Position numbers and translations under genes: made by a program. A DNA stretch of 64,000 nucleotides from Oscillospiraceae bacterium (GTDB lineage Bacteria > Bacillota > Clostridia > Oscillospirales > Ruminococcaceae): NCBI GenBank assembly GCA_028692035.1, contig JAQUYD010000001.1, positions 1 to 64,000 on the forward strand. The letters are read 5' to 3'. Position 1 is the first letter of the stretch; each line of letters starts with the position of its first letter. Positions 3,465 through 7,934 of the stretch are shown in pieces. Below the pieces are notes generated by a model. It was given only the letters and a program-made list of their open reading frames with translations, was not told the DNA's origin and searched no databases.

Positions 3465-4154
3465 TTATTTTTCTGTCCGCTGTTCTTCGGTGCGCTGAAA
3501 CCCGTTTGCAAACATCTTTTCATGCACGCCGGTAATGGAAAATTCTACCCATTCGGCGATATTTACCGCATGATCTCCAATCCGCTCAAAATATTTGGCG
3601 ATCATCAAAAGATCTACCGCATATTCCGCATCGGCATGTCCGGAAGCGATCAACTCGATCAATTCTTTTTTGACAGTATCAAACAAATCGTCTACCACAT
3701 CGTCGTAGGCCACCACCGCTTGGGCAGCGTCCAAATCCCGCTTAACAAACGCATCCACGCTATCCATTACCATTTTGATAGTAGCTCTTGCCATTTCGCC
3801 GATGTGCATAGTCTTATCCGACGCCTTGATATTCGCAAGACTGATAATCTCAGCGATATCGGCCGCCTGATCGCCGATCCGCTCCATGTCTGTAATCATC
3901 TTTAACGCGGAGGATATCTGGCGCAAATCCCGGGCCACCGGCTGCTGCTGGAGCAACAGCTTTAGACACAGGCTTTCAATATCCCGTTCCTGCTGGTCGA
4001 TCTCATTGTCAATGGTAAGGGCCCGTTCTGCCAAGGATTTGTCTCCGTTTAATAGCGCTTTGGCGGAACTGGCAATGGCGCTTTCGCATAGCGCCCCCAT
4101 TTCGTTAAGTTCTTCATTGAGCAGTTTGAGCTGCTCGTCAAATTTGTTTCGCAT
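3465..4154 (-). CDS. phoU: Phosphate signalling complex protein PhoU
   Basis: PhoU helical repeats (DIESLCLKLLLQQQPVARDLRQISSALKMITDMERIGDQAADIAE); downstream of pstB. Confidence 0.95.
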   Translation of the reverse strand: MRNKFDEQLKLLNEELNEMGALCESAIASSAKALLNGDKSLAERALTIDNEIDQQERDIESLCLKLLLQQQPVARDLRQISSALKMITDMERIGDQAADIAEIISLANIKASDKTMHIGEMARATIKMVMDSVDAFVKRDLDAAQAVVAYDDVVDDLFDTVKKELIELIASGHADAEYAVDLLMIAKYFERIGDHAVNIAEWVEFSITGVHEKMFANGFQRTEEQRTEK

Positions 4155-4166
4155 TCCGCTTCCCCC

Positions 4167-4916
4167 TTATCCAAATCTGCCCGTGATATAGTCCTCCGTC
4201 CGCTTATCTGATGGGATTGAGAACAAGGCTTCGGTGCTTCCGTACTCAATGACCTCCCCCAGTAGGAAAAAGGCTGTTTTATCTGAAATTCTGGCTGCTT
4301 GCTGCATATTGTGGGTCACCATAATGATGGTGTATTCTTTTTTTAGCTCCAACGCCAGATCCTCGATTTTTGAAGTCGAGATTGGATCCAACGCAGAGGT
4401 CGGCTCATCCATCAAAAGCACCTCTGGATGCACTGCAAGCGCCCGGGCGATGCAAAGGCGCTGCTGCTGGCCACCGGAAAGGCCCAAGGCGCTTTTGTTC
4501 AAGCGATCCTTCAGCTCCTCCCAGATCGCAGCATCCCGCAGGGATTTTTCCACAATTTCGTCTAACTCTTTCTTTTTTCGAACTCCGTGCGTCCGGGGAC
4601 CAAACGCAATGTTGTCGTACACGCTCATGGGAAAGGGGTTCGGTTTCTGAAATACCATCCCTACCCGCTTCCGAAGGAGGTTTACATCCATATCACCGTA
4701 GATGCTCTCCTGATCCAAAAGTACATTTCCCGTGATCCGGCAACCCTCTACCAAATCATTCATCCGGTTGAGGCTTTTTAAAAAGGTCGATTTACCGCAT
4801 CCGGACGGGCCGATAAAGGCTGTGATCTCATTTGAAGGTAGATTGAGATTGACCGATTTTAACGCCTGAAAATCACCATAATACAAATCTAGGTTTTCAA
4901 TTGTAAATTTATCCAT
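4167..4916 (-). CDS. pstB: Phosphate ABC transporter ATP-binding protein PstB
   Basis: [52 protein letters not shown]. Confidence 0.97.
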
Positions 4917-4923
4917 ATAAGCT

Positions 4924-5790
4924 TTATCCCTTCGCTATTTTCTTTGCCACAAAATTTGACAGGCTGTTGATGGCGATGACTACGATCAGCAAAACGACTG
5001 CGGTCGCATAAGCTTGATCGACATACAAGCCCTCCTGCGATAGGTTATACATATGTACCGAGAGCGTACGAGCCGAGTCAAACAGGCTCTCCGGTACAGT
5101 AGGTGCGGTGCCAGCAGTAAAAATCAGCGCCGCTGTTTCCCCCACAATACGCCCGATGGCTAGGATAACGCCCGCTAAAATGCCGGGAACTGCCGAAGGA
5201 AGCACAATGCGAAATACGGTGCGCAGCCTTCCGGCGCCCAGCCCAAAGCTCCCTTCCCGATAGATGTCCGGTACCGACTTCAGCGCTTCTTCGGTAGTAC
5301 GCATGATCAACGGCAGGATCATAATTGCCAGCGTACAGGCGCCGGAAAGGATCGAATAGTTCCAATGCAACGTCACAACAAAGAACAACATGCCAAACAG
5401 ACCGTAGACGATAGAGGGAATCCCGGACAAGGTCTCAGCTGTAACCCGGATGACCTTAACAATTTTGTTTCCCCGCTTTGCATATTCTACCAAATAAATC
5501 GCAGCGAAAATGCCCAAGGGTGCCGCGATCAGCAGGGACAATAAGGTCATTAGAATCGTATTGATGATGGACGGCAACATCGAAACATTTTCGGAGTTGT
5601 AGGTCCATGAAAACAGCTCCGGTGTTAAGTGCGGCACACCCTTTACCAGAATATAGGCGATCAAAAAAAACAAGGCGGAAACAGTAATAATCGCGGAAAT
5701 CGTCACCAGGAGAAACAGGAGCAATGAAAGAGGGCTGCGCTTATAGCTTTTTAACCGTTGCCGAAAAGTCTGGATATTGATTTTCTCCAT
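4924..5790 (-). CDS. pstA: Phosphate ABC transporter permease PstA
   Basis: [16 protein letters not shown] and the [18 protein letters not shown] loop; operon context. Confidence 0.95.
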
Positions 5791-6656
5791 TATTCTTTCG
5801 ACCTCCCTTTCAGCACAGAAAATAGCAAGTTAATCAACAGGATAAACACAAACAGTACAACCGCCGTAGCGATCAGTGCCTCCCGGTGGAGATCAGCCGC
5901 ATAGCCCATTTCCATAACGATGTTCGCTGTCATAGTTCGCACGCCTTTTAATAAGCCGGCGGGCATACGCGGCTGATTGCCCGCGATCATAATAACCGCC
6001 ATCGTTTCACCGATGGCCCGCCCAACGCCGAGAACAACACCGGCTAAAATACCAGACTTCGCCGCCGGTAGCGTGGCAAAGAAAACGCTTCTCTCATGGC
6101 TGGCGCCAAGGGCCAACCCACCCTCGTAATAGCTTTCAGGTACTGCACGGATCGCCGATTCACTCACACCAATAATGGTCGGCAGGATCATAATACCCAA
6201 AAGTAACGATGCCGCCAGCATAGTAGTGCCTTTACTATCGGGAAAAATCTCTCGGATCAACGGCACAATTACCACCAGTCCGAAAAAGCCGTAGACTACC
6301 GACGGAATACCCGACAACAGTTCTATCGCAGGTTTTAAAACGCGGTAAGCCTTTTTGGGGCAAAATCTTGCCATAAATACCGCGGTCAGAATACCAATGG
6401 GTACGCCTACTACGATTGCGCCTGCTGTTACATATATACTGCCTAAAATCATTGGCAGAATGCCATACAGGTCATTGCCCGGCTTCCACACCTGTCCTAG
6501 AAGGAAATCAAGCGGGCCAATTTTCCCAATGGCAGGTAGCCCGTTTGCAAAGAGAAAAAGGCAAATTAAGGCAACCGCCAGGATTGAAGCGCAAGCAGCT
6601 AGGAAAAACACGCCTTTCATGATAGCTTCTTTTGTTAAGTATCGAAAATGCTTCAT
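5790..6656 (-). CDS. pstC: Phosphate ABC transporter permease PstC
   Basis: ELLSGIPSVVYGFFGLVVIVPLIRE, SAIRAVPESYYEGGLALGAS; overlaps pstA. Confidence 0.95.
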   Translation of the reverse strand: MKHFRYLTKEAIMKGVFFLAACASILAVALICLFLFANGLPAIGKIGPLDFLLGQVWKPGNDLYGILPMILGSIYVTAGAIVVGVPIGILTAVFMARFCPKKAYRVLKPAIELLSGIPSVVYGFFGLVVIVPLIREIFPDSKGTTMLAASLLLGIMILPTIIGVSESAIRAVPESYYEGGLALGASHERSVFFATLPAAKSGILAGVVLGVGRAIGETMAVIMIAGNQPRMPAGLLKGVRTMTANIVMEMGYAADLHREALIATAVVLFVFILLINLLFSVLKGRSKE

Positions 6657-6818: not shown

Positions 6819-7757
6819 TTAGGCAACTTCAGACCAGGCGAGAGTCTCTCCTACGTAGATGGATTTGACTTGATCCTTGGTCAGGTTCTCAATGGGGTTG
6901 TCATTGTTTACAACCACTGCGATACCGTCGGTCGCAATTACAGTAGCGGTCAAGCCTTTTTCAATCTCAGTGTCTTTCAGCTCTCTGGAGGCCATGCCGA
7001 TATCGCAGATGCCGTCGATGGCAGAGGTCATACCGGTGGTGGAATCGCTCTGCTGAACTTCGATCTCAGCGTTGGGGTTCACAGCCAGATACGCTTCTTT
7101 CAGTTTCTCCATGACTGGAGTGACGGAAGAAGAACCTGCAACTACGATCTTACCGGAAGGTTTGCTACCGGCATATGCTGCGCTGGTTTCCTGCGGGATA
7201 TAACCTGCTCCCTCTACGACCGCCTGGCCGTCAGAGCTCATGATGAAATCGATGAAATCCTGAGCCACTTCGCTTACTTCTGCTTTGGTCGCAATGTTGA
7301 AAGGTCTGGAAATTCCATAGGTACCGTTTTTGATGTTTTCGACGGAAGCTTCAGCGCCATCGATTTTTACCGCTTTCACAGTATCGTTTAAGGAACCGAG
7401 AGAAATGTAACCGATTGCATAGGTGTTGCCGGCTACAGAGGTCATCATAACAGAAGTGCTGTTGGTAATATCAGCTTCTTCGCTGGTTCTGTCCACTTTA
7501 TTTCCGTCGGCGTCTTTTTCTTCTACACCAAACAGCTCAACAAAAGCGCCTCTGGTGCCGGAACCGTCTTCACGGGAAATGACCGCGATGTTCTTGGAGG
7601 TGTCGAAGTTCGACTCAGCTTGGCTGCTCTGCGCGGAAGAAGCGGGAGTGCTGGTCGTAGGAGTTGCCGCCGAGGAAGAGGTGGTCGTTCCAGAACAACC
7701 TGCGAGAGCCGACATCATCAATGCCGCCGCAACGCATACAGTAATCATTTTTTTCAT
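6819..7757 (-). CDS. pstS: PstS-like phosphate-binding lipoprotein, apparently circularly permuted
   Basis: Lipobox ALAGCSG. IAVISREDGSGTRGAF...GYIPQE precedes GKIVVAGSSSVTPVMEKL...IYVGETLAWSEVA, the reverse of classical PstS order. Start taken at MKKMITVCVAAA. Confidence 0.9.
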   Translation of the reverse strand: MKKMITVCVAAALMMSALAGCSGTTTSSSAATPTTSTPASSAQSSQAESNFDTSKNIAVISREDGSGTRGAFVELFGVEEKDADGNKVDRTSEEADITNSTSVMMTSVAGNTYAIGYISLGSLNDTVKAVKIDGAEASVENIKNGTYGISRPFNIATKAEVSEVAQDFIDFIMSSDGQAVVEGAGYIPQETSAAYAGSKPSGKIVVAGSSSVTPVMEKLKEAYLAVNPNAEIEVQQSDSTTGMTSAIDGICDIGMASRELKDTEIEKGLTATVIATDGIAVVVNNDNPIENLTKDQVKSIYVGETLAWSEVA

Positions 7758-7934
7758 TGCTAAATTCTCCTTTTGTGTTCTTACTTTTGATTGCACAATC
7801 ATCATACAAATTGCATGTAAAATGTAAAACAGTGCGCAAGAAAAATTTTTGTAAAGAACTGATTGAATAGATTTTACATGGATTTTTGACCTTTCCGGTG
7901 GAATACCACCGCTTTTGTGCTGCCATGAAAACAA

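Follow-up and report, generated by a model that had tools for sequence, protein, structure and literature searches.

The pstS gene that we studied, in a window of 64,000 nucleotides (the whole stretch of DNA analysed) from an Oscillospiraceae genome, encodes a PstS whose two halves stand in swapped order. The 312-aa lipoprotein is a genuine circular permutation of PstS and not an artefact. It is almost certainly a working, lipid-anchored phosphate receptor of the PstSCAB importer, a natural circular permutant of the classical protein. The chain starts midway through lobe II, on the strand that precedes the REDGSGTR motif, reaches the old C-terminus, crosses a short new linker into the old N-terminus and ends just past the W-x-E motif, again in lobe II. 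The two-lobed phosphate trap is predicted to be unchanged as folded, with its membrane tether now on lobe II.

The gene occupies 6819..7757, including the stop codon, and is read from 7757 to 6819 on the minus strand, the strand of all the features described below; it was recovered intact as a single match in a whole-genome search. It is preceded by a ribosome-binding site, AGGAG, at 7767..7771. Further upstream (7816-7855 of the window, minus strand), three TTTACA hexamers begin 98, 71 and 64 bases ahead of the first base of pstS; they resemble Pho-box half-sites, but their spacing is not the usual 11-base one. From the sequence, residues 1-20 form a signal peptide with the lipobox LAGC at residues 18-21 (7695..7706), C21 being its cysteine, and residues 22-54 (7596..7694) a tether rich in Ser, Thr and Ala; pLDDT is low over residues 1-50 and about 55-70 in the tether up to residue 50. 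Half B (IAVISREDGSGTRG...GYIPQ, residues 55-190, 7188..7595) follows, which corresponds to the C-terminal half of classical PstS and contains the second part of lobe II and then the C-terminal part of lobe I. A junction linker (residues 191-200, 7158..7187) makes the new join between the old C-terminus and the old N-terminus. Half A (GKIVVAGSSSVTP...WSEVA, residues about 198-312; residues 201-312 occupy 6822..7157), the classical N-terminal half, contains the N-terminal part of lobe I, the hinge strand and the first part of lobe II, and the stop codon comes after ...WSEVA. Both halves were assigned from sequence matches and from the relatives of the protein.

The swapped order is evident from comparison with known proteins. 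The solved classical PstS structures 4GD5, 4Q8R and 1TWY each align to the protein in two crossed pieces (for 4GD5 of Clostridium perfringens, E 5e-47), while 4H1X, the PstS2 of Streptococcus pneumoniae, gives a single collinear match over residues 52-311 (E 2e-61). Similarly, positions 30-157 of the NCBIfam profile TIGR02136 are matched downstream, in half A, and positions 161-294 upstream, in half B. In the native order this profile scored 190.4 bits in two pieces, below its curated cut-off of 206.6, whereas the halves put back into the classical order gave one collinear match of 208.6 bits; the cut-off is thus missed solely because the order is swapped. The match to PF12849 (107.9 bits; cut-off 27) is above threshold, and re-permutation raised the score of the local alignment with E. 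coli PstS from 66 to 104, the best of 200 shuffles being 55. It is clear that the halves-swapped match to classical PstS is far beyond chance. The chain order is therefore B-A and not the canonical N half then C half, which is usual in PstS though not a formal requirement, and the swap proposed in the first-pass annotation is borne out by the crossed matches to 4GD5 and TIGR02136 and by the gain on re-permutation.

The same annotation had placed the cut in the hinge between the two lobes, and here our results differ. PhoX is a phosphate-binding protein related to PstS; its domain II is continuous over residues 101-251, its hinge strand covers residues 93-108 and its Arg159 contacts the phosphate (PMC5439949). 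If PhoX Arg159, E. coli R135 and R62 in our protein are taken as equivalent, the cut, which lies between about residues 112 and 128 of mature E. coli PstS, maps to about 136-152 in PhoX; on the TIGR02136 profile it lies at about position 158-160 of 295. By this alignment the cut falls in the interior of lobe II and the hinge strand is about 30 residues away, so the hinge position does not hold. The equivalent of the PstS/PhoX hinge strand (PMC5439949) is a long strand at residues 270-283 (6909..6950) in a DSSP assignment of the model. With the cut inside lobe II, lobe I, which normally carries both chain ends, would be one continuous segment and both ends would now lie in lobe II; the lipid tether would thereby have been relocated from lobe I to lobe II.

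The arrangement is not confined to this genome. A scan of contigs found more than 500 relatives, of which 80 loci were kept. When the PstS frames in these loci were classified by half order, 132 were B-A, 41 were A-B and two were A-B-A-B, and no further two-half arrangement was seen among the classified frames. All 132 permuted proteins have the break point in common, nearly all stop within 5 residues of the end of half A, and the length of the junction is identical in 113 of them. The protein of the source genome, collinear with 4H1X, has the same B-A order, opened ahead of the REDGSGTR strand and just behind the W-x-E motif. A search of 289 genomes of the class with a model for the permuted family gave a single match spanning both halves, at 193 bits or more, in at least 57 of them; in addition, there was a weaker full-length match in one genome (G188) and partial matches in two (G098 and G061). 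With this model, the halves of classical proteins matched separately and none scored above 161 bits. Among the matches listed, about six genomes with a permuted PstS have a full-length classical one too (G020, G039, G079, G123, G145 and G224). The suggestion that similar proteins may already exist in databases was thus confirmed, and the proposed survey of Clostridia found the same order.

Outside Clostridia, permuted PstS was found in pneumococcus, in Flexilinea and in Treponema, which suggests transfer. Flexilinea was the sole carrier among the 151 genomes searched of its phylum, Chloroflexota, and horizontal transfer is the probable source of its permuted PstS. One Flexilinea genome (G670; loci L041, L184 and L185) has two permuted PstS. 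A plasmid of Treponema saccharophilum carries the same operon, where the permuted gene is annotated simply as "substrate-binding domain-containing protein". We also noticed loci with two PstS genes adjacent or close to each other (L065, 451-1263 and 1494-2327; L038, 1625-2425 and 6037-6852; L069; L015). The upstream copy in L038 is permuted but very divergent (35% identity), a paralogue on a long branch.

To reconstruct descent, the halves of all PstS proteins were placed in one order before trees were built. All permuted proteins, including 4H1X, which sits on a long branch, fell on one side of a single branch (bootstrap/SH-aLRT 100/95, present in 100% of bootstrap trees). The same split was obtained when the two halves were analysed in separate trees, with low local support for half B (0.39). 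When the tree was rooted on E. coli PstS, the root being one long branch, the permuted clade (99/94) was nested in classical PstS, which indicates that the permuted order is derived; its sister group was weakly supported (93/54). It could be argued that the order had several origins, or that different PstS genes exchanged halves, and the tandem A-B-A-B proteins, which arose independently in another lineage, mean that the first step of such a process can recur. We consider this improbable, because one branch separates all permuted proteins, pneumococcal PstS2 among them, in the whole-protein, half A and half B trees, the Treponema protein is also on the permuted side in the rooted whole-protein tree, and no permuted PstS was seen nested elsewhere among the classical ones in these trees. 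With this one split, multiple origins were rejected on the present sampling, on which the permuted order appears to have arisen once from classical PstS. The neighbouring permease gave a corresponding result: in a quick tree of PstC with some long branches, the 67 rows associated with permuted PstS lay on one side (SH-aLRT 100). The agreement of the two splits argues that receptor and permease were inherited together, and permuted PstS has since its origin travelled with its own PstC lineage.

As to how this single event took place, an in-frame tandem duplication of pstS followed by loss of the outer halves is the probable route. A-B-A-B proteins of 531 and 544 aa were found in two genomes (locus L132 in G582 and L133 in G563; wider context in L176 and L175), where they head complete pst operons. 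They show that pstS does undergo in-frame tandem duplication, which leaves an internal B-A core. They share with the permuted proteins this core and the full pst operon, but their chain as a whole is not permuted and they form an independent branch, not close to the permuted clade. For this reason they support the duplication route by analogy, and they were rejected as its direct ancestors. The first-pass annotation, which had considered duplication and loss of outer halves plausible, is therefore supported in that such fusions exist, while the route of the permuted clade itself is not demonstrated by them. The A-B-A-B proteins possibly carry two phosphate sites per chain, and they may serve as a model for a permutation intermediate. 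Other "PstS" frames of about 440-580 aa (L177-L181 and L183) were rejected as tandem proteins; their matches were weak or partial and in one order only.

The permuted chain is predicted to keep the PstS fold. The AlphaFold2 model had a pLDDT of about 97 over residues 51-312, and a Foldseek search with it ranked 4H1X first (TM-score 0.95 on the target, rmsd 1.6, 259 columns); among the matches listed, just one half of the classical PstS structures was aligned (135 columns for 4GD5 and 140 for 1TWY). We take the phosphate contacts of E. coli PstS to be T10, F11, S38, Asp56, R135, S139, G140 and T141. Aligned to these, the motif R62-E-D-G-S66-G67-T68 (7554..7574) supplies the equivalents of R135, S139, G140 and T141, the AGSSS segment (residues 207-211, 7125..7139) those of T10 and F11, namely S210 and S211, and S239 that of S38. 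The contact set of PstS, that is, the Arg, the Ser-Gly-Thr, the Ser/Thr pair and Ser38, is thus present. R62, S66, G67, T68, S211 and S239 were invariant in 69 of 69 sequences and S210 was conserved in 68 of 69.

The surroundings of the gene are those of a phosphate importer. The permuted pstS is the first gene, followed by pstC (5790..6656; TIGR02138, 294.8 bits), pstA (4924..5790; TIGR00974, 287.7 bits), pstB (4167..4916; TIGR00972, 414.5 bits) and phoU (3465..4154; TIGR02135, 204.1 bits), all above the curated cut-offs, in agreement with the normal operon described from the first reading. Among the relatives, permuted pstS was followed by exactly pstC-pstA-pstB-phoU in 67 of 80 loci; the remaining ones were mostly partial pst operons, many on short contigs. 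A TIGR02136 search detected no second PstS in the source genome, the assembly of which is 96.9% complete.

An alternative is that the protein is a permuted paralogue for another substrate, such as phosphonate, arsenate or molybdate, or for sensing, and not the phosphate receptor. The position of the E. coli ligand Asp56 is indeed taken by a serine, S257, and some genomes (e.g. G039 and G123) have kept a classical PstS as well. The same serine, however, is found in classical 4GD5 and 1TWY, and the PDB title of 4GD5 states that phosphate is bound; the difference is therefore a subfamily trait and not an effect of permutation. As the Arg, Ser, Gly and Thr contacts are invariant, pstC comes directly next in almost all loci with pstA-pstB-phoU in most, and the source genome yielded no other PstS, we give this alternative very little weight, marginally less than repeated origin. 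From the site, the operon and the sole-copy status we infer that this permuted PstS would capture phosphate. From the names, we take the PstS2 of the pneumococcal Pst2 system to be SP_2084, the protein of structure 4H1X. In pneumococcus, the phenotypes of a phoU2 deletion need every Pst2 component (PMC4913102), which supports the view that permuted PstS is functional in vivo. A misassembled repeat or rearranged contig, an objection already foreseen in the first-pass annotation, or a faulty gene call can be practically dismissed: although the source genome is a draft in 39 contigs, the identical order and break point recur in 132 proteins whose assemblies are independent of one another and include isolates as well as single-contig genomes, and the crystal structure 4H1X shows the same order.

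The closest known protein is 4H1X (SP_2084), which has the same permuted order end to end and 46% identity. Classical Clostridia PstS (TIGR02136/PF12849; C. perfringens 4GD5 and 4Q8R) share the halves, the phosphate-contact residues and the operon but have the opposite half order. E. coli PstS (TIGR00975 type) is homologous and collinear after re-permutation; it differs in chain order, in having no lipid anchor and in its Asp56 contact. Permuted binding proteins are in themselves already known, since TpMglB-2 (Tp0684) of Treponema pallidum, proposed as "Type Ic", was described as a circularly permuted, tethered binding protein of an ABC importer that still binds its ligand (PMC4990184). TpMglB-2 binds glucose, has a type I fold and another break point, and belongs to a family not shared with PstS; our protein matches the PBP_like_2/PstS family with 4H1X as the best fold, and shows neither the type I fold nor homology to MglB. 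The novelty and rarity implied at first were overestimated, as a crystal structure from 2012 (4H1X) already has the same order and the lineage is widespread. In the open-access papers searched, we found no description of PstS, or of 4H1X, as permuted. Permuted PstS is a real variant of PstS, widespread and of a single origin, and apparently undescribed.

This variant is probably under-named in public annotation. Relatives carry vague names such as "substrate-binding domain-containing protein", and surveys of phosphate uptake that depend on the curated TIGR02136 cut-off can overlook the sole PstS of many Clostridia. On balance, we favour the broader view that there is a Pst lineage, found in about one fifth of the sampled genomes of the class and in streptococci, a genus of Chloroflexota and Treponema, which is defined by a once-only permutation of its receptor that left the anchor on lobe II instead of lobe I, is inherited together with its own permease and has never been described as such. 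In a core nutrient receptor, it offers a clean natural case of a fixed circular permutation that arose once and has many descendants, and comparison across permuted and classical PstS can test the effects of a shifted tether and of a different continuous lobe.
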